This document shows, piece after piece, positions 31,345 to 47,408 of a stretch of DNA of 48,392 nucleotides. The notes beneath the pieces are model-generated. The model had not been told where the DNA came from and did not search any database. It saw nothing but the letters and a program-made list of their open reading frames with translations. Source of the DNA: Mycolicibacterium sp. GTDB taxonomy: Bacteria > Actinomycetota > Actinomycetes > Mycobacteriales > Mycobacteriaceae. The position numbers and the translations under genes were made by a program. The DNA is taken from the NCBI RefSeq assembly GCF_017853185.1, contig NZ_JAFMJZ010000007.1:1-48392 (forward strand), read 5' to 3'. Within the stretch, counting starts at the first letter, position 1, and each line of letters starts with the position of its first letter.

Positions 31345-31448
31345 ATTCCCAAAATAGCCCAGATGAGGCCGGGTGGGCCGCCTGCTGCCACCCGTCCCGC
31401 CGCGCGGTAACGTCCGAAGCGGGGCCGATGACTACAGGAGGCGACGCG

Positions 31449-33611
31449 ATGTCCATCGCACTGACCGATGACCACCGTGAACTGGGCGAGGTCGCCCGTT
31501 CGTTCCTGACCGCACAGAAGGCGCGTTGGGCGGCCCGCGAACTGCTCGACGCCGACGCCGAGACCAAGCCGGCCTTCTGGCGGGAACTGGCCGGACTCGG
31601 CTGGCTCGGTCTGCACATCGACGAGCAGTACGGGGGCTCCGGTTTCGGCCTGCCGGAACTGGTCGTGGTCATCGACGAACTCGGCCGGGCGGTGGCGCCG
31701 GGGCCCTTCGTCCCGACCGCGGTGGTCTCCGCGGTGATCGCCGCCGTCGGCAGCGAGGAGCAGAAGGCCCGGCTGCTGCCCGGTCTCGTCGACGGATCCC
31801 GCACGGCGGCAGTCGGTTTCGGCGGTGCGGTGACGGTGTCGGACGGTCACGCCTCCGGGGATGCCGGAGTGGTGATCGGCGCGGGCCTGGCCGACGTTCT
31901 CCTGCTCGCCGCCGGCGACGACATGATCGTGGTGGACCGGGCGGCCGCCGGGGTGACCGTGCAACTGCCGGGCAGTCTGGACCGGACCCGGCGCTGTGGC
32001 CACGTGGTTCTGGCCGACGCCGCCGTGCGCGACGACGTGCTGCCCGGCGCGCACGCCGCCGCACTGGCCCGGGCCCGCACCCTGTTCGCGGCCGAGGCCG
32101 TCGGCGGTGCGTCGGACTGCGTGGACGCCGCCGTCGAGTACGCCAAGGTGCGCGAGCAGTTCGGCCGCACCATCGCCACGTTCCAGGCGGTCAAGCACCA
32201 TTGCGCCAACATGCTGGTCGGGTCGGAGTCGGCGGTGGCGTGCGTGTGGGACGCCGCCCGCGCTGCCGCCGACGACGAGCAACAGTTCCAGCTGATCGCC
32301 GCGGCCGCCGCGACGCTGGCCTTCAGCGGCTATGTCCGCAACGCCGAACTCAACATCCAGGTGCACGGCGGGATCGGGTTCACCTGGGAGCACGACGCCC
32401 ACCTGCACCTGCGCCGCGCGATGACGTTGCAGGCACTGCTCGGCGGGGACGGCCCGGCCACCGACGTGTTCACCCTGACCGTGGCCGGGACCAGCCGAGC
32501 CAACAGCCTGGACCTGCCGGCCGAGGCCGATGCGATGCGCACCGAGATCCGCGCCGAGGCGCAGCGCATCGCAGCGCTGGACGAGAAGGCCCAACTCGAC
32601 GAACTCATCGCGACGGGCTACCTCATGCCGCACTGGCCGAAGCCGTGGGGCCGCGCCGCCGGGGCGGTGGAGCAACTCCTGGTCGAGGAGGAGTTCGCCG
32701 CGGCCGGGGTGAAGAAGCCGGACTACGGGATCACCGGCTGGGTGATCCTCACCCTGATCCAGCACGGAACGCCTTCGCAGATCGAACGATTCGTGGAGAA
32801 GGCACTGCGCAAGGACGAGATCTGGTGCCAGCTGTTCTCCGAGCCGTCGGCCGGCTCGGACGCCGCCGCGGTCAAGACCCGCGCCACCCGGGTCGAGGGC
32901 GGCTGGAAGATCAACGGGCAGAAGGTCTGGACCAGTGGCGCGCACTACTGCCGGCGCGGATTGGCAACCGTGCGTACCGATTTCGACGGACCGAAGCACG
33001 CCGGGATCACCATGGTCATCCTCGACATGAAGGCGCCGGGCGTGGAGGTGCGGCCGCTGCGCCAGATCACCGGCGGTTCGGAGTTCAACGAGGTCTTCTT
33101 CAACGACGTCTTCGTGCCGGACGAGGACGTCGTCGGCGAACCCAACGCCGGCTGGGCCGTCGCGCGGGCCACCCTTGGCAACGAGCGGGTGAGCATCGGC
33201 GGCGGCGCCGGCGGTATCGCCCCGGCGTCAGCCTGGCTGGTCCACCTGGCCCAGACGCACGGCGACCGCATGGTGGGTGCGGTCCAGCGGGTCGGCCGGT
33301 TCCTCGCCGAGGACGAGGCACTGCGGTTGCTCAACCTGCGCCGTGCCGTCCGCAGCATCGAGGGCGCCGGTCCGGGGCCGGAGGGCAACATCACCAAACT
33401 CAAACTGGCCGAACACTTTCAGGAGCAGGGCGTGATCGCGGCGAGCCTGCTCGGTCCGGAGATGGTCCTCGACAGCGGTGAGGGGGCGCTGGCCGCGCGG
33501 GCGGCGATGGGCGCCCGCGGCATGGCGATCGCCGGCGGCACCTCCGAGGTGACCCGCAATCAGATCGCCGAACGCATCCTCGGCATGCCTCGCGATCCGC
33601 TGATCAAGTAG
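31449..33611 (+). CDS. Double-domain (fused) acyl-CoA dehydrogenase, FadE-like
   Basis: 720 aa with two ACAD modules: first with REQFGRTIATFQAVKHHCANM; second with CQLFSEPSAGSDAAAVKTRA, WKINGQKVWTSGA and GGTSEVTRNQIAERILG. Confidence 0.9.
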   Translation: MSIALTDDHRELGEVARSFLTAQKARWAARELLDADAETKPAFWRELAGLGWLGLHIDEQYGGSGFGLPELVVVIDELGRAVAPGPFVPTAVVSAVIAAVGSEEQKARLLPGLVDGSRTAAVGFGGAVTVSDGHASGDAGVVIGAGLADVLLLAAGDDMIVVDRAAAGVTVQLPGSLDRTRRCGHVVLADAAVRDDVLPGAHAAALARARTLFAAEAVGGASDCVDAAVEYAKVREQFGRTIATFQAVKHHCANMLVGSESAVACVWDAARAAADDEQQFQLIAAAAATLAFSGYVRNAELNIQVHGGIGFTWEHDAHLHLRRAMTLQALLGGDGPATDVFTLTVAGTSRANSLDLPAEADAMRTEIRAEAQRIAALDEKAQLDELIATGYLMPHWPKPWGRAAGAVEQLLVEEEFAAAGVKKPDYGITGWVILTLIQHGTPSQIERFVEKALRKDEIWCQLFSEPSAGSDAAAVKTRATRVEGGWKINGQKVWTSGAHYCRRGLATVRTDFDGPKHAGITMVILDMKAPGVEVRPLRQITGGSEFNEVFFNDVFVPDEDVVGEPNAGWAVARATLGNERVSIGGGAGGIAPASAWLVHLAQTHGDRMVGAVQRVGRFLAEDEALRLLNLRRAVRSIEGAGPGPEGNITKLKLAEHFQEQGVIAASLLGPEMVLDSGEGALAARAAMGARGMAIAGGTSEVTRNQIAERILGMPRDPLIK

Positions 33612-33621
33612 CCCGCCTCCT

Positions 33622-33684
33622 CGTTGAGTGAGGAACCTTGCAGACAAAGTGCGAGTGCGTCTCTGCAAGGCTCCTCACTCGACG
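33622..33684. repeat. Near-perfect inverted repeat (about 23-bp stem) between fadE and the first MASE1-phosphatase gene
   Basis: GAGTGAGGAACCTTGCAGA (33626-33644) versus TCTGCAAGGCTCCTCACTC (33662-33680), one mismatch; CGTT/GACG extends the stem with one G-U pair. Confidence 0.75.
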
Positions 33685-33725
33685 GAAAAATGGGCATCTG
33701 ACGCCGGTGCCATAGGGTGGTTTTC

Positions 33726-35843
33726 ATGAACCGGGCGTACGGAGCTGAATTCGTTCGCCTGTTCACCATGGTGTTCCTGGCGTTCACCACCGGTGCGGTG
33801 TTGTCCTGGGAGTCCTTCGGCTCGGATATCGGTCCCTCGTTCTTCTACCCGTCGGCCGGTGTCACCGCCGCCGCCATGATGCTCAGCCGGCGTGCGCTGT
33901 GGCCCGCGGTCGCCGCCGCCGTCGTCCCCGCCGAGATCCTGGTCGACACCTTCTACGGGAGCCCGCTGCCGCTGTCGCTGGCCTTCGCCGCGTCCAATGT
34001 GGTGGAACCGTTGATCGGGGCGTCGCTGGTGCTGGCCTGGTGCGGTGGCCGGCCGGATCTGCGCAGGCGCAAGGATTTCGTGCTGTTCCTCCTCGGTGCC
34101 TGCCTGGCCGGGCCGTTCGTGGGTGGACTCATCGGCGGCACCGCCAGCGCGATGAACAGTGGCGCCCCGTGGCTCAGCACGGCGGTCACCTGGTGGTCCG
34201 GTGATGCGCTCGGCGTGCTGGTGATGGCCTCGCCGATCCTGTTGTGGACCTACCAGTCCGACGTCCTGCGGCGCCGCCCGTGGGAGACGGCCGGGGTGTT
34301 GACAGTGACCGCGGCGCTGTCGATCGCGTCCTTCTGGACCGAGGCCCCGCCGTCGATGCTGATCCTTCCGGTCCTGGCCTGGGCGGCCTTCCGGCTCGAC
34401 ATGCTCGGCGCCGCGATAGCCGGCGCCCTGGCCGCGTTCCTGGCCAACACGATGACGATGCACGGACGGGGACTGTTCCGCAGCGCGAACGTCTCACAGG
34501 AGGCCCGGGTCGTCCTCACCCAGGCCTTCGTCGCGACCATCCTGGTGGTCGCCATGCTGATCGGGCAGGAGGCCGCGGCGCGGCTGAACGCGGTGCGGGA
34601 ACGGGAGACCGAGCGCCGGGAACGGATGCGCCTGGAGACCCTCGCACGGCTGGCCCGCCAGCTGTCCGCCGCCCTCACGCCGCAGGACATCGGTCAGGCG
34701 CTGCAGAGCGAGGTGCTCAACGAGGCCGACGCCCAGGGCCTCAGTCTCGGACTGGTCAGCGCCGACGGCAGCAGGCTGGAATGGATCACCATGTCCGGCT
34801 ACCCCGCCGCGATGACCCAGGCGTTCGGAAACGGTGTCAGCCTGGACGTGCGGACGGCGGCCACCGATTCGGTCCGATCGGGCAAGCAGATCGAGATCCA
34901 GACGGCCGCCGAGTACGCCGCGGTGTATCCCGAAGCCGCGCAGTGGGTGCTGGGCGGCGGGGTTGAGGCGGTAATGAGCTGGCCGCTGGATTCCGGCGGG
35001 GCGCCGTTCGGAGCACTGGTCCTGACGTGGTCCGAATCGCAGCCGATGGACATCTCGCAACGCGCCTACATCTCGGCGGTGGCCACCATGGTGAGCCAGG
35101 CATTGGTACGGGCGCGCCTCTACGCCGACGAGCATGCCCGCGCGGCGGTGCTGCATTCGGTGGCCCAACCGGTGGCCCAGGTCGACGCGATCGGACTCGA
35201 GTACCGCGCGCTGTACCAACCCGCCGATGCCGCGCGCGGATTGGGCGGTGACTGGTACAGCGTGCTGGCACTCCCGGACCACCGGACCTATCTGTCCGTC
35301 GGAGACGTCATCGGTCACGGACTGCTCTCCGTCGAGGACATGGCGCGGCTGCGCAGCACCGGGAACGCCTATGCCCATCAGGGCCTGGCGCCGGCGCAGA
35401 TCCTCACCGAGCTGAATCGCTTCGCCACCCATCAGATTCGCGGTGAGTTCGCCAGCACCCTGGTGGCGATCTTCGATCCGCTGACCAACTCGTTGACCTA
35501 CAGTTCGGCCGGTCACCTGCCGGCCCTGCTGCGCCGAGACCAGACCGGCGAGGTGATCCGGCTCGCTCATTCGCAGGGGCCGTTGCTCGGACCGTTCGAC
35601 GACGCCGTCTACGTCCAGTGCAGTGTTTCGGTGCGTCCCGGTGATGTGCTGGTGATGTACACCGACGGACTCGTCGAGCACCACGACGAGGATCTCCGGG
35701 CCGGGATCTCCCACCTCGAGCACGTGCTGGAGGCCTGGCCGCCGGCCGCCCTGCTGGACTGCGAGGCCCTGGCGCAGGACGTGGCCCCGGCCCCGCACGA
35801 CGACGACCTCTGCCTGCTGATGGTGCGCTTCGGTCCCGGCTGA
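33726..35843 (+). CDS. MASE1-GAF-SpoIIE/PP2C serine phosphatase, paralog 1
   Basis: Multi-TM MASE1-like N-terminus (PSAGVTAAAMMLSRRALWP, SWWSGDALGVLVMASPILLW-type), GAF region, SpoIIE core GLGGDWYSVLALPDHRTYLSVGDVIGHG, YTDGLVE, DDDLCLLMVRF. Confidence 0.9.
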   Translation: MNRAYGAEFVRLFTMVFLAFTTGAVLSWESFGSDIGPSFFYPSAGVTAAAMMLSRRALWPAVAAAVVPAEILVDTFYGSPLPLSLAFAASNVVEPLIGASLVLAWCGGRPDLRRRKDFVLFLLGACLAGPFVGGLIGGTASAMNSGAPWLSTAVTWWSGDALGVLVMASPILLWTYQSDVLRRRPWETAGVLTVTAALSIASFWTEAPPSMLILPVLAWAAFRLDMLGAAIAGALAAFLANTMTMHGRGLFRSANVSQEARVVLTQAFVATILVVAMLIGQEAAARLNAVRERETERRERMRLETLARLARQLSAALTPQDIGQALQSEVLNEADAQGLSLGLVSADGSRLEWITMSGYPAAMTQAFGNGVSLDVRTAATDSVRSGKQIEIQTAAEYAAVYPEAAQWVLGGGVEAVMSWPLDSGGAPFGALVLTWSESQPMDISQRAYISAVATMVSQALVRARLYADEHARAAVLHSVAQPVAQVDAIGLEYRALYQPADAARGLGGDWYSVLALPDHRTYLSVGDVIGHGLLSVEDMARLRSTGNAYAHQGLAPAQILTELNRFATHQIRGEFASTLVAIFDPLTNSLTYSSAGHLPALLRRDQTGEVIRLAHSQGPLLGPFDDAVYVQCSVSVRPGDVLVMYTDGLVEHHDEDLRAGISHLEHVLEAWPPAALLDCEALAQDVAPAPHDDDLCLLMVRFGPG

Positions 35844-35881
35844 CACCCCCAGGGCTCCAAGGTGGTCGATAGTCTGCTGAC

Positions 35882-38020
35882 ATGAGCCCGAGCGGGGGAG
35901 ACCGGGACGCTGATGTCCGGCGTACCGCCACCGGCTTGTTCACTGCGGTGTTCGTGGCCTATGCCGCCGGTTCAGTGCTGTCGTGGGAGGCCTTCGGGGC
36001 CACGGTGGGTCCGGCCTTCTTCCCCTCAGCCGGTGTCACGGTGGCCGCGATGCTGCTCAGCCGGCGTTCGCTGTGGCCGGTGATCGTCGTGGCGGTGCTG
36101 CTCGCGGAGTTCCTGGTCGACGTCGTCTACGGCGAGCTTCCCACCGAGGTGATCGGCTATGCGATCGCGAATGCGGTCGAACCGGTGGTGGGCGCCGCCC
36201 TGGTGCGCGCCTGGTGCGGCGGCACACCCGATCTGCGCCACCGCAAGGACCTCCTGCTGTTCATCGCCGGCGCCTGCATCGTGGGGCCGTTGGTGGGGGC
36301 GCTGATCGGCGGCTGGAACATCTCGGTGCTGCATCACGTCTGGTTCCCCGCCGCGGTCGTGCACTGGTTCGCCGGTGACGCGATCGGTGTCCTGGTGGTG
36401 GCCGCGCCGATCCTGTTGTGGCGCAAGCAGTCCTACGTCATCCGGGATCGGCCCTGGGAGACCGCCTGCGTTCTCGCCGCGTCCGCCCTGGTCTCGGTCG
36501 GGGCGTTCTGGAGCCAGATCCCGCCGTCGATGCTGGTGCTGCCCATTCTGGCCTGGGCCGCATTGCGGCTCGACATGATCGGCGCCGCGACGGCCGGAAT
36601 CGTGGTGGCCTTCGTGGCCAACATCATGACCGTCTCCGGCCGTGGACTGTTCATCAAGATGGACATGCCGGAAGCCAGCAAGCTGGCGCTCGCGCAGGTT
36701 TTCATCGCCGTCAATGTGCTCGTCGCCATGCTGATCGCGCAGGAGGCCGCCGCGCGGATGCGAGCCGTCCGCGAACGCGAGGTGGAGCGACGCGAACGGT
36801 TGCGTCTGGAAACGCTGGCGCGGCTGGGGCAGCAATTGGCGGCGGCACTGACCCCTAAGGACATCGGTGATGCGCTGGAGGGCCAGGTCCTCAACGAGGC
36901 CGGTGCCAAGGCGGTGAACCTGGGCCTGGTCGGTCCCGATCGACAGACGCTGGAATGGATCACCATGGCCGGCTACCCGCAGGCCGTGCTTGACGAGTTC
37001 GGCGGCGGTGTGGCGATCAGTGAGCGGACCGTGGCCACCGACGTGGTGCGATCCGGTCAGCCGGTGCTGGTGCGGACATCGGCGGAATACGCGCGGCGTT
37101 ATCCCGCCAAGGTGTACTGGCAACAGATGAGCGGCACCGAGAGCGTGGTGGGCTGGCCGCTGTCATCCGGTGGCTCTCCGATCGGGGCGCTGCTGCTGGT
37201 GTGGTCGGAGCGCCAGCCACTCAATGCCGCCCAGCTCGCCTACGTCTCGGCGGTGGCCACCCTGGTGAGTCAGGCCCTCGTGCGTGCCCGGATCTACGCC
37301 GACGAACACGCCCGGGCTGCCGTGCTGCAATCGGCGGTGCTGCCGACCACGCCGACCGGCACCCTCGGACTGGACCTGTGCGTCGTCTACGAACCGGCCG
37401 ACGTCGCCCAGGGGCTGGGCGGCGACTGGTACGACCTGATGCGGATTCCGGGCGATCGCCGGTACCTCGCCGTGGGCGATGTGGTGGGACACGGCTTGCC
37501 GGCGGTGGAGGACATGGCCCAGTTGCGCAGCGCCGGCCGGGCGATGGCCCACCAGGGGCTTTCCCCGTCGCGGTTGCTCGCCGAACTCAACGGTTTCACC
37601 AGGGACGCCAGCCGGGGCAAGTTCGCCACCATGGCGGTCGTCATTCTGGATTCCGCAGCCGGCACGCTGACCTACGGTTCGGCCGGGCACCCGCCCTGCC
37701 TGCTGCGGCGGGCCGCGACCGGTGCGGTGATCCGACTCTTCGACGCCCAGGGTCCGGTCCTCGGTCCGCTGGAGGACATCGACTATCCGGAGATGACGGT
37801 GCCCGTCGCACCCGGAGACGTCCTGGTGATGTACACCGACGGTCTGGTCGAATCCCGCGGTTCGGACATCGAAGTCGGCATCGCGCGACTCGAGCAGATC
37901 ATCGCCGGGTGGGGTCCGGACGCCGTGCTGCCCGACGGATGCGCGTCGTTGCAGGAAGTGCTTGCCCCCCGGCCGCGCAGCGACGACATCTGCATCATCG
38001 CCGTGCGGTTCGGCGACTAG
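35882..38020 (+). CDS. MASE1-GAF-SpoIIE/PP2C serine phosphatase, paralog 2
   Basis: Same architecture; GLGGDWYDLMRIPGDRRYLAVGDVVGHG, YTDGLVE, SDDICIIAVRF. Confidence 0.9.
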   Translation: MSPSGGDRDADVRRTATGLFTAVFVAYAAGSVLSWEAFGATVGPAFFPSAGVTVAAMLLSRRSLWPVIVVAVLLAEFLVDVVYGELPTEVIGYAIANAVEPVVGAALVRAWCGGTPDLRHRKDLLLFIAGACIVGPLVGALIGGWNISVLHHVWFPAAVVHWFAGDAIGVLVVAAPILLWRKQSYVIRDRPWETACVLAASALVSVGAFWSQIPPSMLVLPILAWAALRLDMIGAATAGIVVAFVANIMTVSGRGLFIKMDMPEASKLALAQVFIAVNVLVAMLIAQEAAARMRAVREREVERRERLRLETLARLGQQLAAALTPKDIGDALEGQVLNEAGAKAVNLGLVGPDRQTLEWITMAGYPQAVLDEFGGGVAISERTVATDVVRSGQPVLVRTSAEYARRYPAKVYWQQMSGTESVVGWPLSSGGSPIGALLLVWSERQPLNAAQLAYVSAVATLVSQALVRARIYADEHARAAVLQSAVLPTTPTGTLGLDLCVVYEPADVAQGLGGDWYDLMRIPGDRRYLAVGDVVGHGLPAVEDMAQLRSAGRAMAHQGLSPSRLLAELNGFTRDASRGKFATMAVVILDSAAGTLTYGSAGHPPCLLRRAATGAVIRLFDAQGPVLGPLEDIDYPEMTVPVAPGDVLVMYTDGLVESRGSDIEVGIARLEQIIAGWGPDAVLPDGCASLQEVLAPRPRSDDICIIAVRFGD

Positions 38021-38442
38021 ACCCCGAGCAGGCTGACCCCGGACTCGCCGGCCTGTGCGGCGGCCAGGTCGGCAGGGGCGACCGCACCGTGGCGAACCAC
38101 CACCGCGCCCGCTGAGGCCCAGTCGGCGAGCGCCTCGTCGATCGGCCCGGAGAACACCAGGACCGCGGCCACCATGTGGCGGCCGGTGATGGTGTCGACC
38201 ACGATGTCGAGGTCGGACTGGCTCAGCAGTCGGGTGTCCAGGGCGTCGAATTCGGCGAGGCCGGCATCGACCCGGCTGGCCGGCACCGTGCTGGCGATGC
38301 CCTGGATCGAGCGGATGAACTCGGCGTCGAGCACCGTGACCGAGCCGGATTCGGCGAGGGTGTGCAGCCGGTCGAAGCCGGCGCGCACCGGCGCGGACTC
38401 CTCGAATTCGACGACGACGTACTGGGTATCGGTCACGCTCAC
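38017..38442 (-). CDS. DUF6325/DUF1269-like small protein in the hyp cluster
   Basis: 141 aa; TQYVVVEFEESAPVRAGFDRLHTLAESGSVTVLDAEFIRS; GTGA overlap with hypB. Confidence 0.7.
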   Translation of the reverse strand: MSVTDTQYVVVEFEESAPVRAGFDRLHTLAESGSVTVLDAEFIRSIQGIASTVPASRVDAGLAEFDALDTRLLSQSDLDIVVDTITGRHMVAAVLVFSGPIDEALADWASAGAVVVRHGAVAPADLAAAQAGESGVSLLGV

Positions 38443-39221
38443 TTCTTAGCACCTGCCCGCGCGAAGTCGCGCAGCCAGTCGAACCAGGCGCTCATGCCCT
38501 CGCCGGTGCGGGCGCTGACCGGCAGGATGGTGGCCGTCGGGTTCACCTCGCGGACGCGGGCGACGTAGATGTCGACGTCGGCGTCCAGGTGCGGCACCAG
38601 GTCGATCTTGTTGAGCAGCACCACATCCACCGAACGGAACATCACCGGATACTTCAGCGGCTTGTCCTCACCTTCGGTGACCGAGTACACCATCGCCTTG
38701 GCGTGCTCACCGACGTCGAACTCGGCCGGGCACACCAGGTTTCCGACGTTCTCGATCACCACCAGGTCCAGTGCGCCCAGGTCCAGGCCCTGCAGTGCCC
38801 GGTTGACCATCGGGGCGTCGAGATGGCATTCGCCGCCGAAGCCGTTGTTGGTGTTCAGCAGCGAGATCTGCGCACCGCGGCCGCCGAGTTTGGCGGCGTC
38901 GAGGTCGGTGGCGATATCGCCCTCGACGATGCCGACGGCGACCTCGCCGGCCAGTTCGTCGAGGGTGGCCGCCAGCACGGTGGTCTTGCCCGATCCGGGC
39001 GAGCTCATCAGGTTCAGCGCTCGAATCCCGTTGGCCTCGAAGGCTTCCCGGTTGATCGCGGCGCGGTTGTCGTTCTCGGCGAAGATCGACTCCAGCACCT
39101 CGATACGCTCGGTGCCGGTCGCATAGCCGCTGTGGTCGCCGAGGTGATCGTGGTGGTGATCCCCATGATCGTGATCGTGGCTGTGCTCGGTGCCGTCGTC
39201 GTGACGGTGAAAACGACCCAT
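38439..39221 (-). CDS. hypB: Hydrogenase nickel incorporation GTPase HypB
   Basis: His-rich N-terminus HSHDHDHGDHHHDH; LMSSPGSGKTTVL; NVGNLVCPAEFDVGEHAKAMVYSVTEGEDKPLKYP; LNKIDLVPH. Confidence 0.96.
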   Translation of the reverse strand: MGRFHRHDDGTEHSHDHDHGDHHHDHLGDHSGYATGTERIEVLESIFAENDNRAAINREAFEANGIRALNLMSSPGSGKTTVLAATLDELAGEVAVGIVEGDIATDLDAAKLGGRGAQISLLNTNNGFGGECHLDAPMVNRALQGLDLGALDLVVIENVGNLVCPAEFDVGEHAKAMVYSVTEGEDKPLKYPVMFRSVDVVLLNKIDLVPHLDADVDIYVARVREVNPTATILPVSARTGEGMSAWFDWLRDFARAGAKK

Positions 39222-39227
39222 TTCTTT

Positions 39228-39572
39228 TCAGACCCTCTCGGAGACTTCCAACGAGGTCACCAGGAACTCCTCGCCCCGGACCACTTCCACATCGCCGCTG
39301 TCGCACTGCGGGCACATCACCGACCACCGGGAGGCGATCTCGGACTGCGCGCCGCAGGCGCGGCACTTCACCTCGGCCGGCACCAGCTCCAGTTCCAGTT
39401 CGGCCTCGGCCATGTCCTCGTGGTCGCGGACGATGGTCCAGCAGAACAGCAGGGTGTCGGGTACGACCTGACGCAGCGCGCCGACCTGCAGACGCACCAC
39501 GTCGACCCGGCGCCCGGCGGCGTGCGGTTTGACGACGCCGGCAATCGCCTGGCACAGCGACAGTTCGTGCAC
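39228..39572 (-). CDS. hypA: Hydrogenase maturation nickel metallochaperone HypA
   Basis: GTG start gives (M)HELSLCQAIAGVV; CRACGAQSEI...CPQCDSGDVEVVRGEEFLVTSLEV zinc site. Confidence 0.95.
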   Translation of the reverse strand: MHELSLCQAIAGVVKPHAAGRRVDVVRLQVGALRQVVPDTLLFCWTIVRDHEDMAEAELELELVPAEVKCRACGAQSEIASRWSVMCPQCDSGDVEVVRGEEFLVTSLEVSERV

Positions 39573-39629
39573 CGGCAGAACGCTACCCAAAGGGCGAAAT
39601 AGACGTGTCGTCGGCGTTAAGATCCCGCC

Positions 39630-41657
39630 GTGGGGCGTCATGAGGGGGTGTCCGCACCGTCCGCCCCGATCCGGGTGTTCGTCATCGTGTTCGTGGCCTA
39701 CCTTGCCGGCGCGGTCGCTTCGGCGTGGGCGTTCGGTTCCACGACGGCCTCAGCGTTTTTCGTACCGGGCGGGATGACCGTCGCGGCACTGTTGCTGACG
39801 CATCGCTCCCGGTGGCCGGTGATCATCGCGGCACTGGTGATCGCTGAACTCATCGTCGATCGGGTCAGCGGATTGAACTGGGCGATCTCGGCCGGCTTCG
39901 CCGTGGGCAACACCGCAGAGGCCCTGGTCGGTGCGGCGGTGGTCCGGGCCTGGTGCGGCGGGACCCCCGACCTGCGCAGGACAAGAGATCTGACCGTGTA
40001 CGTCCTCGGTGCTGCCGGTGTCGGCGCGCTGTGTGGCGCCCTGATCGGAGGCCTCACCAAGCTCTGGGCGTTCGGGGTGCCGCTGTTCCAGGGGATGTCG
40101 CAGTGGTTCGCCGGCGATGCGATCAGCGTTCTGACCATCGGCGCCTCGATTCTGTTGTGGAGCAGGCAATCCCACATCCTGCGGTCACGTCCGCTGGAAA
40201 CGGCCGCCATTCTCGCCGCCGCGGCGGTGGGGTCGGTCATCGCGTTCAGCACGGAGATCCTCCCGGCCACCACCACGCTGCCGGTGCTGGCCGTCGCGGC
40301 GGTGCGCCTCGGGGTTCTGGGCACCGCGCTGACCGGAGTGATCGTGGCCGCGATCGGCAACTACCTCACCGGATCGCAGCACGGGCTCCTCGGTCACGCC
40401 GATACCGCTGACCCGCTGAAAGTCGCACTGGCCCAGGTCTTCGTCGCGGTTCTGGTGCTGACCGCCATGGTCATCGCCCAGGAGGTGGCCACGCGGACCA
40501 GTGCCGTCCGGGAGCGGGACGTGGAGCGTGGCGAGCGGCTGCGGCTGGAGTCGCTGTCCGGGTTGGCGCAGGAACTGTCGGCCGCGCTCACCCCGCTCGA
40601 TGTCGGCAAGGTGATCGGGCGCCGGCTACCCGGCGATCTCGGTGCGACGGCGTTCAATCTGGGGCTGCTCGATCATGACCGCGGCCGGCTGGAGTGGGTG
40701 GCAGAGGAGGGTGGCCGCCACGAACCGGCCATCGCCGACGATGTGGTGCGGTCCGCCGTCCCGGTGGTCGTCGACCAGGATTCCGGATCGCTGGCCGCCT
40801 GGCCGCTGTTCTCCGGTGAGCGCGTCACCGGTGTCCTCCAGCTGGGATTCGGCCCGTCGCACCAGTTCGATGCCGAGCAGCTGACCTACATCTCCGCCGT
40901 GGCCGCGATGGTGGGTGAGGCACTGGCCCGCGCGCAGTCCTACGCCGACGAGCATGCCCGGGCGGCGGTGCTGCACTCCGCGCTGCATCCGGCCAGCCCG
41001 CCGGCGATCGTGGGGATCGAGTACTGCGTGTGTTACGAACCCGCCGACACCGTGCACGGTCTGGGCGGCGACTGGTACGACGTGCTGTCGTTGCCGGACA
41101 ACCGGACCTACCTCGCCGTCGGCGACATCGTCGGGCACGGTCTGCAGGCGGTCGAGGACATGGCCGCGATGCGTAGCGCCGGGCGCGCCCTGGCCCATCG
41201 GGGACAGTCTCCGGCCCAGATGCTGGTCGACCTCAACAGCTTCACCGAGAACGTCATCCGCAGCGAGTTCGTCACCATGGTGTCGGCGGTCTTCGACCAC
41301 ACATCCGGTGTGCTGTCCTACAGTTCCGCAGGTCATCCGCCGGCGTTCCTGCGCAAGGCTGAGACCGGCGAGGTGATCCAGCTCGTCGACGCCAACGGAC
41401 CCGTCCTGGGACCGGTGAAGAGCGCGCACTACTCCGACGGCAGCATCGCGGTCGGTCCCGGGGACATCCTCGTCATGTACACCGACGGCCTGGTGGAGGG
41501 TCCCGGGCAGGTGGTCTCGGACGGGATCTCGCGGGCCGCGCACACGGTCGCCGCCTGGCCTGCGGTGAAACTGTTCGATTGCACAGCGCTGGCCGATCAC
41601 CTTGCCCCGGCGCCGCGGTCGGACGACGTCTGCGTGCTCGTCGTTCGGTTCCGTTAA
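39630..41657 (+). CDS. MASE1-GAF-SpoIIE/PP2C serine phosphatase, paralog 3
   Basis: Same MASE1-like N-terminus; shortened GAF region; GLGGDWYDVLSLPDNRTYLAVGDIVGHG, YTDGLVE, SDDVCVLVVRF. Confidence 0.9.
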   Translation: MGRHEGVSAPSAPIRVFVIVFVAYLAGAVASAWAFGSTTASAFFVPGGMTVAALLLTHRSRWPVIIAALVIAELIVDRVSGLNWAISAGFAVGNTAEALVGAAVVRAWCGGTPDLRRTRDLTVYVLGAAGVGALCGALIGGLTKLWAFGVPLFQGMSQWFAGDAISVLTIGASILLWSRQSHILRSRPLETAAILAAAAVGSVIAFSTEILPATTTLPVLAVAAVRLGVLGTALTGVIVAAIGNYLTGSQHGLLGHADTADPLKVALAQVFVAVLVLTAMVIAQEVATRTSAVRERDVERGERLRLESLSGLAQELSAALTPLDVGKVIGRRLPGDLGATAFNLGLLDHDRGRLEWVAEEGGRHEPAIADDVVRSAVPVVVDQDSGSLAAWPLFSGERVTGVLQLGFGPSHQFDAEQLTYISAVAAMVGEALARAQSYADEHARAAVLHSALHPASPPAIVGIEYCVCYEPADTVHGLGGDWYDVLSLPDNRTYLAVGDIVGHGLQAVEDMAAMRSAGRALAHRGQSPAQMLVDLNSFTENVIRSEFVTMVSAVFDHTSGVLSYSSAGHPPAFLRKAETGEVIQLVDANGPVLGPVKSAHYSDGSIAVGPGDILVMYTDGLVEGPGQVVSDGISRAAHTVAAWPAVKLFDCTALADHLAPAPRSDDVCVLVVRFR

Positions 41658-41667
41658 CGTAATCGCC

Positions 41668-43953
41668 GTGGTCGTTCGGGTTCGGCTCGACATCACCGGC
41701 GTGGTCCAGGGGGTGGGATTCCGCCCGGCTGTCGCACGCATCGCCGCCCGGCATGGGCTCAGCGGGTGGGTCTACAACGACGCCGGGTCGGTGCACTGCG
41801 AATTCGAGGGCCCGGCGGCCGACGTCGAGTCGGCGATCGCGGCACTGCGTGGCGGTCCGCCGCCGATGGCCCGCATCGACACCGTGGTGCGCACCGATGT
41901 GACGCCGGCCGGGCAGACCGGTTTCGAGATCGTCGCGAGCCGGACCGGGGATGACGGCCGGACTCTGGTGCCGCCGGATATCGCGATGTGTGCGGACTGC
42001 CTGCGCGAGATGCGCGACCCGGCCGACCGACGCTTCGGGCACCCGTTCATCACCTGCACCAACTGCGGTCCGCGCTACACCGTCATCACCGACCTGCCGT
42101 ATGACCGGCCGGCCACCACGATGGCCGGTTTCCCGATGTGCGAACGGTGCGCCGCGGAGTACCGCGATCCGGCAGATCGCCGCTATCACGCGCAGACCAT
42201 CGCCTGCCCGGAATGCGGACCCACGCTGTCGTCATCTCTCGATGCGGCCGCCGACGCACTGCGTGACGGGCAGGTGGTCGCGGTCAAGGGAATCGGCGGA
42301 TTCCACCTGGCCTGCCGGGCCGACGACGACGCCGTCGTCACCCGGCTCCGCACCCGAAAGAACCGGCCCGCCAAGCCTTTTGCGGTCATGGTCGCCGATC
42401 TGGCCGCCGCCCGGAAGATTGCCGACATCGGCGACGCCGCCGCGGCGGCGCTGAGTTCACCCGCCGCCCCGATCGTCCTGGTGCCCGGCAGGCCGGATGC
42501 GGTCGCCGACACGGTGGCACCCGGTCTGGCCGATCTGGGCGTGATGCTGGCCTACTCGCCGATCCACCATCTGCTCTTCGACCGCCTGGGGCCCATCCCG
42601 CTGGTGATGACCTCGGCCAACCAAGGCGGCTCGCCGATCGTCTTCCGCGATGAGGATCTCGGCTGGATCGACGGTCTGGCCGATGCCGTGCTGACTCACG
42701 ACCGGCCGATCGGCGTGCCGTGCGAGGACTCGGTGGTCGCCATCGACGACGAGGGTGGTGAACTGCCGTTGCGGCGGTCGCGGGGGTACGCGCCGCTGCC
42801 GGTGACGGTCCCGGTGTCCGGCGCGGAGACGATCCTGGCGACCGGGGGCGACCTCAAGACCACCTTCTGTCTGATGGGGGCCGACGGCCGCGCGCACCTG
42901 TCATCCCACCTCGGCGATATGGCCGACCCGCGCACCCAGGTCTGCTTCGAGAGCACCCTGGAGCACCTGGCGTTCATGACCGATCGCCGGCCCGAGGTGA
43001 TCGCCCACGACATGCACCCGGGTTACGCGACCACGTCCTGGGCCCGCCGCCACGCTCAGGGCCGGCCTGTCGTCCCGGTCCAGCATCACCACGCCCACGC
43101 CGTCTCGCTGCTGGCCGACCGGGGCAGGCTGGGCACCCCGGTGCTGGCCGTCACCTACGACGGCACCGGCTACGGCACCGACGGCAGCATCTGGGGCGGC
43201 GAGCTGCTGCTGGTCACCGAGCCGTCGGAGTTCACCCGGGTCGGGCACCTTGCCCCGTTCGCGCTGCCCGGCGGCGAGGGTGCGGTGCGCCAGCCCGCCC
43301 GGATCGCCCTGGACCTGCTGCACCGCGCCGGGGTGGACTGGGACGACGATCTGGCGCCGGTGGCCGCGGTGGGCGCCGACGGCCTGCACATCCTGGGCCA
43401 GCAGATTCCGCGCGGGCTGGGCTGCGTGACCACCACCAGCATGGGCAGGCTGTTCGACGCCGTCGCCAGCCTGCTGGGGCTGTGCCAGACGGTCAGCTAC
43501 GAGGGCCAGGCGGCCGTCGAACTCGAGGCCCTGGCCCGCTCAGGCTTGACCAGGGGCAGCCCGGTCGCGCTGGACTTCGACGTCAACGGCGGACTGATGG
43601 ATCCCGCCCCGGTGATCGCCGGCCTCGTCGCGGGCTTGCGGGCCGGGACGGACAGGTCCGATCTGGCCGCAGGATTCCACCACGCGGTGGTGCGGTCGAC
43701 CGCGGCGGCGGCCCTGGACTGCGCCCGCGCCGCCGGCGTCCCGGTGATCGGCCTGACCGGCGGGGTCTTCGCCAATCGCATACTGCTGCAGGGTCTGCGG
43801 CAAACCCTGTCCAACCGTGGCCACGAGGTGCTCACGCACCGTATCGTTCCCTGTGACGACGGAGGCTTGGCGTTGGGCCAGGCCACAATTGCCGCAGCCG
43901 TCAGAGAATCGGAAAGGACCGGCGCATGTGCCTCGGAGTCCCCGGCAAAGTGA
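41668..43953 (+). CDS. hypF: Carbamoyltransferase HypF
   Basis: Acylphosphatase domain ITGVVQGVGFRPAVARIA; zinc fingers CADCLREM...CTNCGPRYT, CERC..CPECGP; YrdC-like KGIGGFHLACRAD; VQHHHAHA; GGVFANRILLQ. Confidence 0.96.
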   Translation: MVVRVRLDITGVVQGVGFRPAVARIAARHGLSGWVYNDAGSVHCEFEGPAADVESAIAALRGGPPPMARIDTVVRTDVTPAGQTGFEIVASRTGDDGRTLVPPDIAMCADCLREMRDPADRRFGHPFITCTNCGPRYTVITDLPYDRPATTMAGFPMCERCAAEYRDPADRRYHAQTIACPECGPTLSSSLDAAADALRDGQVVAVKGIGGFHLACRADDDAVVTRLRTRKNRPAKPFAVMVADLAAARKIADIGDAAAAALSSPAAPIVLVPGRPDAVADTVAPGLADLGVMLAYSPIHHLLFDRLGPIPLVMTSANQGGSPIVFRDEDLGWIDGLADAVLTHDRPIGVPCEDSVVAIDDEGGELPLRRSRGYAPLPVTVPVSGAETILATGGDLKTTFCLMGADGRAHLSSHLGDMADPRTQVCFESTLEHLAFMTDRRPEVIAHDMHPGYATTSWARRHAQGRPVVPVQHHHAHAVSLLADRGRLGTPVLAVTYDGTGYGTDGSIWGGELLLVTEPSEFTRVGHLAPFALPGGEGAVRQPARIALDLLHRAGVDWDDDLAPVAAVGADGLHILGQQIPRGLGCVTTTSMGRLFDAVASLLGLCQTVSYEGQAAVELEALARSGLTRGSPVALDFDVNGGLMDPAPVIAGLVAGLRAGTDRSDLAAGFHHAVVRSTAAAALDCARAAGVPVIGLTGGVFANRILLQGLRQTLSNRGHEVLTHRIVPCDDGGLALGQATIAAAVRESERTGACASESPAK

Positions 43954-44171
43954 TCGCCATCTGGGAGGAGTCGGGCACCCGGATGTCGACCGTCGACTTC
44001 GGCGGTACCACCAAGACCGTGTGCCTGGCCTACCTGCCGGATATGGAGATCGGCGAATACACCATCGTGCACGCGGGGTTCGCGATCACCCGCCTCGATG
44101 AGGCCTCGGCCAACGAGACCCTGCAGATGTTCGCCGATCTGGGCATCTTGGAGGAAGAGCTCGGCGCATGA
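43926..44171 (+). CDS. hypC: HypC/HybG/HupF family chaperone
   Basis: [17 protein letters not shown]...[24 protein letters not shown]; overlaps the hypF 3' end. Confidence 0.96.
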
Positions 44172-45271
44172 AGTACCTCGACGAGTTCCGCGACCCGGCC
44201 GCCGCCAAGGCGCTGGTCGACAACATCCGCCGGACCTCGACGCGTCCCTGGACCATCATGGAAGTCTGTGGGGGACAGACGCATTCGATCATCCGCAACG
44301 GAATCGACCAGCTGCTCGAAGGCGCCGTCGAGTTCATCCACGGCCCCGGCTGCCCGGTCTGCGTGACCCCGCTGGAGATGATCGACCGCGCCCTGGAGAT
44401 CGCCGGACGCGAGGACGTCATCTTCTGCTCCTTCGGCGACATGCTCCGCGTCCCCGGCAGTCATCAGGACCTGTTCTCCGTCAAGGCCCGCGGCGGTGAC
44501 ATCCGCATCGTCTACTCGCCGCTGGACGCCACCCGGATCGCCGCGGAGAACCCCGACAAGGAGGTGGTGTTCTTCGGCGTCGGGTTCGAGACCACCGCCC
44601 CGGCCAACGCCATGTCGGTGCTGCACGCCCAGCGCCTCGGCCTGACCAACTTCTCCATGCTGGTCTCCCACGTCCTGGTGCCGCCGGCCATCACCGCGAT
44701 CCTCTCCTCGCCGACCAACCGGGTGCAGGGGTTCCTCGCCGCCGGCCACGTCTGCACCGTCATGGGCACCGCCGAGTACGGGCCGCTGGTCGAGCAGTTC
44801 GGAGTGCCGATCGTGGTCACCGGGTTCGAGCCGCTGGACATCCTCGAGGGGGTGCGCCAGGTGGTCGAGATGCTCGAAGAAGGTAAGGCTGAACTGCGCA
44901 ACGCCTACCCGCGGGCTGTCACCGAGACCGGCAACACCGTCGCGCAGCAGGCGCTGGCCGACGTGTTCACCGTCGTCGACCGGCAGTGGCGCGGCATCGG
45001 GATGATCCCCAAGTCGGGGTGGACGCTGTCGCCCAAGTACGCCGAGTTCGACGCCGAACTCAAGTTCGGGGTGGGGCATCTGCAGGTGCAGGAGTCCGAC
45101 CTGTGCCACGCCGGGGAGGTGCTGCAGGGCCTGATCAAACCCAACCAGTGCCCGGCGTTCGGCACGGCCTGCACGCCGCGCACCCCGTTGGGCGCGACCA
45201 TGGTCTCCAGCGAGGGAGCGTGCGCGGCCTACTACCAGTTCCGTCGGCTGGAGTCTTCGGCCAGTGTCTGA
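44168..45271 (+). CDS. hypD: Hydrogenase formation protein HypD
   Basis: [70 protein letters not shown]. Confidence 0.97.
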
Positions 45272-46328
45272 TCTCCCGGACCCGTCGAACTGGGTCTGCC
45301 CGATGCCGCTGCGCGAAACCAAGCGCATCGTCATGGGCCACGGCGGCGGCGGCATCCTGTCCGAGGAACTCATCGAGAACCTTTTCCTGCGCGCGTTCGG
45401 CTCATCCGGCGGGCCGTCCCGCGACTCGGCGGTGCTCGAGGTCGGCACCGGCCGCATCGCGCTGACCACCGACTCCTACGTCGTCAACCCGCTGTTCTTC
45501 CCGGGCGGCAACATCGGCGACCTCGCCGTTCACGGCACCATCAACGATCTGGCCTGCAGCGGGGCCCAGCCGATCGGACTCACTGCGGGCTTCATCCTCG
45601 AAGAGGGCCTGGAACTCGACGTGCTCGGCGCCATCGTGACGACCATGGGCAAGGCCGCCGCCGACGCGGGCGTCGGCATCGTCACCGGTGACACCAAAGT
45701 CGTCGGAAAGGGAAGTGCGGACGGGCTTTTCATCAACACCGCCGGCGTCGGCATCATTCCGGACGGGGTGAACATCGGACCCGAGCGGGCCCGCCCGGGT
45801 GATCACATCATCGTCTCGGGCAACCTCGGCGAGCACGGGGTTGCCATCATGAGCGTCCGCGAAGGCATCGACTTCGGCACCACGGTGACCACCGACAGCG
45901 CGCCCCTGCACCGGCTGGTGGCCGCCATGCTGGCGGCGGTCGACGAGCCGAATGCCGTTCACGTACTGCGTGATCCGACCCGCGGCGGACTGGTCGCCTC
46001 CGCCGTCGAGATCGCCCGCACCTCGAAGGTGGGGATCGAACTCGACGAGGCCCGCATCCCGGTGCCGGAGACCGTCGCCTCGGCATGCGGATTCCTCGGC
46101 CTGGACCCGCTTCAGGTGGCCAACGAGGGCAAGATGGTGGCCTTCGTCGATCCCGTGCACAGCGAGGCGGTGCTGGCTGCCATGCGCGCCCGCCCTGAGG
46201 GTGCGAACGCGGCGATCATCGGACGCGTCGTCGAGGAGCATCCAGGGATGGTGGTGGCCAAGACGCCGTTCGGTACCACCCGGGTGGTGGAACGCGAACT
46301 GGGCGAACAGCTTCCGCGAATCTGCTGA
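45264..46328 (+). CDS. hypE: Carbamoyl dehydratase HypE
   Basis: [56 protein letters not shown]-terminal PRIC with terminal Cys. Confidence 0.97.
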
Positions 46329-46334
46329 GTGCTG

Positions 46335-47408
46335 ATGGCCGAACCCATGGTCCCCGGCGTCACCGGGACGCTCGACGAAGCGGCCGTGGCCGCTCTGGCC
46401 GGTTGGGTGCGCGCACAAGGTCTCGGCAAGACCGTCACCGACGTCGAACCACTGGCCGGGGGATCGCAGAACGTCGTCGTCCGGCTGCGCATCGACGGTC
46501 GGCACCTGGTGCTGCGCCGCCCGCCGCCGCACCCACGGCCCAACAGCGACCGCACCATGCAACGTGAGATCGCCGTGCTGCACACCCTGGCCGGCAGCGA
46601 CGTTCCGCACCCGCGGATCGTGGCGGCCTGTGATGACCTCGACGTGCTCGGCGTCGTCTTCTATCTGATGGAGGAGGTCGACGGCTTCAATCCGGGCAAC
46701 GAGATCGCGCCCGCCTATGTCCACGACCCGCAGATGCGTCATCAGGTCGGGCTGAACTACGCCGCCGACGTCGCCCGACTGGGCCAGGCCGACTGGATGG
46801 GCAGCGAACTGGCCGACTGGATGCGGCCGGGCTCCTTCCTGGAACGGCAAGTGCCGCAATGGCGTTCATCGGTGGCGGCCTACCGCTCCCAGGACGGCTA
46901 CGACCACGACTCACTGCCGGGTGTCGACGACCTGTGCGACTGGCTGGACGCCAACCGTCCGAAGGACTACGTGCCCGGGATCGTGCACGGCGACATCCAC
47001 CTCAACAACACCATGCTGCGCCGGGAGGTCCCGGAGGTGGCGGCCTTCGTCGACTGGGAGATGTGCACCATCGGCGACCCGTTGCTCGACCTGGGCTGGA
47101 TGCTGGTGTGCTGGCCGCTGGAGCCCAATCCGCTGGGATCGGCCGGGTATCTCGCCGAACTCGGCGGATTGGCAACGCGCACAGAGCTTCTCGAGGCCTA
47201 CCTCGACGCCGGCGGCCGGCGCACCGAGCACCTGGACTGGTACCTGGCGCTGGCCTGCCTCAAACTCGGCGTCGTCATCGAGGGCACCTGGGCCCGCTAT
47301 CTGGCCGGCCGGGCGTCCCGGGAGGCGGGGGAGCGGTTGCACGCCAGCGCGGTCATGTTGATGGGTATGGGTACGGCTGTGGCGGCCGGGGAGAACCCGT
47401 TCAGCTGA
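46335..47408 (+). CDS. Phosphotransferase (APH/choline kinase-like) family protein
   Basis: PLAGGSQNVVVRLRIDGRHLVLRRPP, IVHGDIHLNNTML, VDWEMCTIGDPLLDLGWML. GTG at 46329 directly after the hypE stop is an alternative start. Confidence 0.9.
   Translation: MAEPMVPGVTGTLDEAAVAALAGWVRAQGLGKTVTDVEPLAGGSQNVVVRLRIDGRHLVLRRPPPHPRPNSDRTMQREIAVLHTLAGSDVPHPRIVAACDDLDVLGVVFYLMEEVDGFNPGNEIAPAYVHDPQMRHQVGLNYAADVARLGQADWMGSELADWMRPGSFLERQVPQWRSSVAAYRSQDGYDHDSLPGVDDLCDWLDANRPKDYVPGIVHGDIHLNNTMLRREVPEVAAFVDWEMCTIGDPLLDLGWMLVCWPLEPNPLGSAGYLAELGGLATRTELLEAYLDAGGRRTEHLDWYLALACLKLGVVIEGTWARYLAGRASREAGERLHASAVMLMGMGTAVAAGENPFS

Follow-up and report, generated by a model that had tools for sequence, protein, structure and literature searches.

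The stretch of DNA analysed here (the window) comprises 48,392 nucleotides of a Mycolicibacterium sp. contig (NZ_JAFMJZ010000007.1, assembly GCF_017853185.1) and carries three genes, named MS1, MS2 and MS3, whose products are predicted from their domains, catalytic residues and modelled fold to be membrane-anchored serine/threonine phosphatases of the RsbU/SpoIIE type. The genes are interspersed with hyp genes for hydrogenase maturation, and an earlier note had read this arrangement as suggesting a membrane signal fed into hydrogenase maturation or a sigma factor. In the explanation preferred here, which is judged probable, the three proteins would be phosphatases of the RsbU/Rv1364c type with a MASE1 input, their STAS substrates would be encoded elsewhere in the genome, and the adjacency to the hyp genes would have been inherited. 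They would most likely feed a general stress switch and not hydrogenase assembly.

Domains, fold and paralogy of the three phosphatases

The three full-length open reading frames were found on the plus strand where the earlier note had placed them: MS1 at 33726..35843 (705 amino acids (aa), with an in-frame GTG at 33717, 9 bases upstream, as alternative start), MS2 at 35882..38020 (712 aa) and MS3 at 39630..41657 (675 aa, GTG start, shorter GAF). Pfam searches identified MASE1 (E 2.3e-31, 1e-26 and 3e-22 for MS1, MS2 and MS3; 79-110 bits for a curated cut-off of 29.8) and SpoIIE (E 2.4e-41, 5.3e-45 and 9e-40; 137-154 bits for a cut-off of 25) in each protein. The GAF domain that had been announced for all three passed its Pfam cut-off in MS2 only (GAF_2, E 1.3e-8, 35.6 bits for a cut-off of 28.6); the matches in MS1 and MS3 were weak and below it, and in MS3 a GAF-like domain was recovered by structural modelling. 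Hydrophobic segments span residues ~5-290. The metal-site motifs of PP2C phosphatases (GGDW, GDVxGHG, YTDG and the terminal DD) are present in all three copies. Aspartates D481, D499 and D619 were invariant in 30 of 30 homologues and D665/D666 were conserved in 29 of the 30. As no catalytic residue is lost, a reading of the proteins as MASE1-only sensors was discarded. A common sensor, linker and SpoIIE core had also been claimed; MASE1 and SpoIIE are indeed shared, but only MS1 and MS2 contain VRERExERRERxRLETLARL without deviation, MS3 carrying the linker variant VRERDVERGERLRLESLSGL.

The structure of MS3 was modelled with AlphaFold2 using 30 homologues (pLDDT 88.9, pTM 0.54). The model, which contains long helices, predicts a multi-helix membrane part followed by a long helix, a GAF-like domain, a linker helix and the PP2C domain. 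Its best fold match in the PDB was the RsbU domain of Mycobacterium tuberculosis Rv1364c (3ke6, E 4.7e-12), and the GAF structure 5w10 was also among the matches. The same RsbU domain was the best PDB match of a sequence profile made from the three copies (E 5.5e-24). Domains, residues and predicted fold all agree with the earlier description of the three as SpoIIE/PP2C membrane phosphatases of the partner-switching kind.

Rv1364c resembles the MS proteins in its PP2C domain, the best match by profile and by fold, but it is soluble, takes its input through a PAS domain and unites the phosphatase with RsbW and STAS domains in a single chain (PAS-SpoIIE/RsbU-RsbW-STAS), whereas the MS proteins are membrane-anchored, combine MASE1 with GAF and are devoid of RsbW and STAS domains. 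In the SigB pathway of Bacillus subtilis, RsbU and RsbP likewise place a regulatory N-terminal module and a linker helix ahead of a PP2C effector, but they receive their input through RsbT binding or a PAS domain, whereas the input of the MS proteins is the membrane MASE1. Pseudomonas aeruginosa SiaA is another membrane-anchored PP2C phosphatase, and its PP2C domain was found by fold (6k4e); its sensor is different, and the NCBIfam SiaA match of the MS proteins was weak, restricted to the catalytic part and far below the curated cut-off. The ~300-residue membrane input domain is the same as that of Escherichia coli DgcE and other MASE1 proteins (PMC6510439), but the effector of DgcE is a diguanylate cyclase and that of the MS proteins a PP2C phosphatase. 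M. smegmatis RsfR is a PP2C phosphatase of the same genus and, by analogy, the MS proteins would be expected to target a STAS anti-sigma antagonist too. RsfR has a receiver domain, is controlled by the RsfS kinase and is encoded beside rsfB-rsbW2 (PMC10950880), whereas the MS proteins receive their input through a membrane domain of their own and have no partner gene next to them. No paper on MASE1 combined with SpoIIE was found in the literature searched. The MS family may thus be described as a locally expanded addition to the well-known RsbU/SpoIIE phosphatases with diverse sensors.

MS2 is 57% identical to MS1 and 52% identical to MS3. Since the identity between the copies is even across MASE1 (0.43-0.55), GAF (0.39-0.55) and SpoIIE (0.54-0.55), they are, as judged from sequence, old paralogues whose similarity is far beyond chance, with no sign of recent duplication. 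In a tree of 51 homologues, the MS2 type, which is widespread in Mycobacterium, formed one group, and MS1, MS3 and a fourth type devoid of GAF formed another. This fourth paralogue, in which MASE1 is joined directly to SpoIIE, retains the catalytic motifs in both loci where it was seen (L039:5940-7637, 565 aa; L060:3597-5381, 594 aa). A further MS1-type copy lies elsewhere, near ribonucleotide reductase, in two genomes with a linked hyp locus (L064 and L067). The window's own genome (G000) also encodes a MASE1-CHASE-SpoIIE membrane phosphatase of 870 aa on contig C64 (L081:5129-7741), which bears three SpoIIE genes.

Partner-switching components and proposed signal path

The earlier note had reported no RsbV/RsbW-like partner in the window, and this was confirmed: no STAS, RsbW or sigma factor gene lies beside the phosphatases there, and the only STAS domain in the window is that of a sulfate permease. 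Such genes are present elsewhere in the genome. SigF is encoded on contig C256 (SigBFG, 306.8 bits for a curated cut-off of 234) with a HATPase_c_2 match upstream, and a STAS-HATPase_c_2 gene pair is located on contig C72. In total, the genome has 9 STAS matches, several HATPase_c_2 genes and 11 SpoIIE matches. Contig C182 (L078) bears a row of HATPase_c_2 (300 aa), STAS (103 aa) and GAF-ANTAR (262 aa) genes, and this row is possibly a partner switch with an antitermination output.

SigF of M. smegmatis is controlled by the PP2C phosphatase RsfR through dephosphorylation of the STAS protein RsfB (PMC10950880), and SigF partner switching tracks the condition of the respiratory chain (PMC10950880, PMC7693655). 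In E. coli DgcE, MASE1 was shown to serve as the membrane site at which input signals dock (PMC6510439). Given these precedents and the partners encoded in the genome, partner switching is the most likely mechanism, and we infer the signal, substrate and output as follows. In the predicted architecture, the MASE1 membrane input of ~280 residues is connected through a long helix, the GAF domain and a linker helix to the PP2C catalytic domain. A membrane-borne signal would alter the dimer or the linker helix, and the PP2C domain would then dephosphorylate a STAS anti-anti-sigma factor at its serine. In this state, the factor would bind the RsbW-like anti-sigma kinase, setting free a SigF-type sigma factor. 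The copies themselves would stem from old duplications at a site of the form fadE ... phosphatase ... APH, in which the huc/hyp block is also found in one mycobacterial lineage.

Adjacency to the hyp genes in the window and in relatives

A collection of 296 Mycobacterium genomes was searched with MS2 (E <= 1e-80) and with the window's hypD (44168..45271, plus strand) as a marker gene. The hypD matches were counted by hand, and hypD was considered close at E < 1e-200 (about 80% identity or more). An MS2-type phosphatase was found in 38 genomes and a close hypD in 67, the two occurring together in 28. Among these 28 genomes, the two genes lay within 20 kb in 13, farther apart on one contig in 6 (85 kb to 1.6 Mb, typically 85-137 kb) and on different contigs in 9. 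Each gene was also found alone: 10 of the 38 genomes with the phosphatase were devoid of a close hypD, and 39 of the 67 with a close hypD were devoid of the phosphatase. In the complete genome G303, which is phosphatase-positive, no hypD match was obtained at E 1e-60 and the phosphatase is still at the fadE site (L094).

The neighbourhood was scanned in one genome per species, which gave 39 loci, nearly all from Mycobacteriaceae, onto which the window and huc genes were mapped. That the synteny should extend beyond this strain had been set beforehand as a test, and the neighbourhood was found to recur in several mycobacterial relatives. The recurrent site consists of fadE (in the window an acyl-CoA dehydrogenase-like gene of 727 aa, identified with Pfam, at 31428..33611 on the plus strand), in some cases a zinc peptidase and an epimerase, the phosphatase and then variable content. 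The phosphatase is followed by the huc operon and hyp in L040, L041, L053 and L056, by hyp alone in L037, L039, L060, L061, L065, L066 and L071, directly by an APH-type phosphotransferase gene (46329..47408, plus strand, in the window) in L042-L047, L049-L051 and L059, and by none of these in L052. L068 probably belongs with the first set; a huc-operon gene (DUF6390) lies 1.6 kb downstream, so it was grouped with the linked loci. Among the recurrent-site loci with upstream sequence, fadE was retained in 22/23 and huc/hyp were adjacent in 12/23. In the linked loci, MS2 and hyp/huc are transcribed towards each other.

Where the huc/hyp block sits elsewhere, the phosphatase remains with fadE and APH (L042, L043 and L092 vs L083 and L084). 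In G412, an intact huc-hyp unit is located ~100 kb from the phosphatase (L084); in G416, hypFCDE is ~100 kb away (L083) and the phosphatase lies between the epimerase and APH (L092). The fadE-phosphatase-APH loci are nested among the huc/hyp-linked loci in the 51-homologue tree, so that in this subclade the linkage is older and was later lost while the phosphatase was kept; the grouping of L068 does not affect this nesting. MASE1-SpoIIE genes were also found at unrelated sites with no hyp nearby (L048, L054, L055, L057, L058, L062, L063, L069, L070 and L074), next to genes for ribonucleotide reductase, an AhpC/DUF742 fusion, EngA, a carboxymuconolactone decarboxylase-like protein, a GGDEF-EAL protein and a trehalase-like protein; no common theme was found among these neighbours. 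L086, from a genome without the phosphatase, has a SpoIIE gene ~8 kb from hypB; this was taken as incidental, many genes lying between the two, and by its domains, read by eye, the gene encodes a different, GAF-GAF-SpoIIE-HATPase-like protein. These comparisons suggest that the phosphatase-hyp adjacency is inherited synteny, often broken without loss of the phosphatase, and they provide no evidence of a dedicated hydrogenase circuit.

In the window, MS1 and MS2 are separated by 38 bp. A small conserved gene (38017..38442, minus strand), to which no family could be assigned, overlaps the MS2 stop by 4 bases, tail to tail, and is followed by hypB (38439..39221, minus strand; a CobW/HypB/UreG GTPase with a His-rich N terminus) and hypA (39228..39581, minus strand; its true start is likely near 39572, VHELSLCQ...). 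A hypA-hypB-DUF6325 operon had been described between MS2 and MS3; hypA and hypB are there, on the minus strand, but the DUF6325 label was abandoned, no Pfam or NCBIfam match being obtained for the small gene even at E 0.1 to 1. Relatives of this gene are present in L037 (79%), L060 (57%) and L061 (46%). Downstream of MS3, on the same strand, hypF (41668..43953, GTG start) begins after a measured gap of 10 bp (41657 to 41668), as noted earlier, and is followed by hypC (43926..44171), hypD, hypE (45264..46328) and the APH gene. Because the small gene, hypB and hypA are on the minus strand, MS1 and MS2 are convergent with them and MS3 is divergent from hypA. Thus, among the three phosphatases, only MS3 is plausibly placed to share a transcript with hyp genes.

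In close relatives of the window, MS3 may share a transcript with hypFCDE. Among the mapped loci, its placement between hypA and hypF is confined to the window, L038, L039 and L060. In L061, an MS3 relative is placed before the small gene. hypA and hypF face each other directly in L037, L061, L065, L066 and L071. The L039 copy is a 323-aa remnant in which GAF, the C-terminal catalytic aspartates and part of MASE1 are missing; the hypF behind it is intact. The L038 and L060 copies are truncated where their contigs end, which leaves only one intact and one decayed case to judge. L039 comes from a metagenome assembly.

The gap between fadE and MS1 contains a strong hairpin (33620-33687, CGTTGAGTGAGGAACCTTGCAGA...TCTGCAAGGTTCCTCACTCAACG; RNA minimum free energy -49.4 kcal/mol, z -7.2). 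It recurs at at least 12 dispersed sites in the genome with about 75-87% identity, several of them at contig ends, and was considered to be a dispersed palindromic repeat, REP- or MITE-like.

Weighing of a hydrogenase role and significance

In M. smegmatis, the huc genes for the atmospheric-H2 hydrogenase Huc are switched on under (carbon) starvation and hypoxia, and their direct regulators have yet to be identified (PMC13098282), which makes any sensor encoded next to huc/hyp an obvious candidate. In the M. smegmatis sigF regulon table, the hydrogenase terms used retrieved the group-3b genes MSMEG_3928/3929 only, and not huc (PMC4694148). The literature search on SpoIIE with hydrogenase found nothing relevant. 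The window's genome apparently has no huc operon; as it is 91% complete, this absence is uncertain. The window's hyp genes are separated from the hydrogenase large-subunit matches of the genome, which lie on contigs C85 and C50. The match on C85 (L076) is of a non-Huc type (25% identity to HucL) with a NifU/Rieske-like gene nearby, and that on C50 (L077) consists of N- and C-terminal parts only.

Several observations weigh against the preferred explanation. No STAS or RsbW gene adjoined any copy inspected, so the substrate is a putative one. The strict SigF promoter consensus (GGWWT-N16-17-GGGTAY) was absent from the window, and no SigF consensus was found near phosphatase or hyp starts in the window and the relatives' loci; autoregulation by SigF is therefore unsupported. 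A close hypD was present in 28/38 phosphatase-positive vs 39/258 phosphatase-negative genomes (Fisher p 4e-13, naive to relatedness). MS2 proteins that share only ~60% identity still have the linkage to huc/hyp, perhaps as a result of selection, and the position of MS3 10 bp before hypF suits co-transcription. The last three points, together with the huc/hyp adjacency in the linked loci (L037, L039-L041, L053, L056, L060, L061, L065, L066 and L071), the starvation and hypoxia response of huc and the watch that SigF partner switching keeps on the respiratory chain, would fit dedicated hydrogenase regulators, in which MASE1 senses a respiratory, redox, energy or H2 membrane signal and huc/hyp are raised by partner switching, the linkage being selected for joint inheritance. 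This is quite improbable: the phosphatase occurs without a close hypD in 10 genomes, and without any hypD match at E 1e-60 in G303; a close hypD occurs without the phosphatase in 39 genomes; only 13/28 pairs are within 20 kb, and the phosphatase stays at the fadE site after huc/hyp have moved ~100 kb; MS2 is convergent with hyp/huc, and MS3 is a remnant in L039; and huc was not among the hydrogenase entries retrieved from the sigF regulon table. It is very doubtful that the MASE1-GAF-SpoIIE proteins act as the missing membrane sensors by which the respiratory or energy state of certain mycobacteria would be coupled to huc/hyp expression through partner switching, with feedback from MS3 through co-production with HypFCDE. 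The retention of fadE in nearly all loci vs huc/hyp in about half, the convergent MS2, the frequent presence of phosphatase or hyp alone and the decay of the hyp-operon copy in a relative all speak against the arrangement as a pointer to hydrogenase maturation. A hydrogenase link is thus possible but not favoured.

Two further alternatives concern the substrate and MS3. The substrate might belong to a non-SigF STAS/HATPase module, such as the row on C182, with antitermination or another sigma factor as output; the supply of STAS and HATPase_c_2 genes would allow it and the 11 SpoIIE matches imply several substrates, but no pairing is directly evidenced and the closest solved relative, Rv1364c, has been proposed for the SigF pathway (PMC10950880). 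We hold this to be rather unlikely. MS3 might also be a passenger whose translation is merely coupled to hypF, with no hydrogenase role and with decay in some lineages, as its restricted placement, the L039 remnant before an intact hypF and the directly facing hypA and hypF of other loci would suggest. Yet the window copy is full length with all catalytic residues, and the few cases that can be judged are those described above. This possibility appears highly improbable. RsbU/Rv1364c-type phosphatases with a MASE1 input and distant STAS substrates remain the preferred explanation.

The comparison supplies a fair test set of species that have huc/hyp and the phosphatase with or without linkage, or one in the absence of the other; Mycolicibacterium litorale F4 is a culturable environmental species of the linked kind. 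The results also call for caution in inferring function from adjacency where orthologues reveal a breakable neighbourhood. The MASE1-GAF-SpoIIE family named here would be a plausible extra input to SigF-type stress control in environmental mycobacteria.

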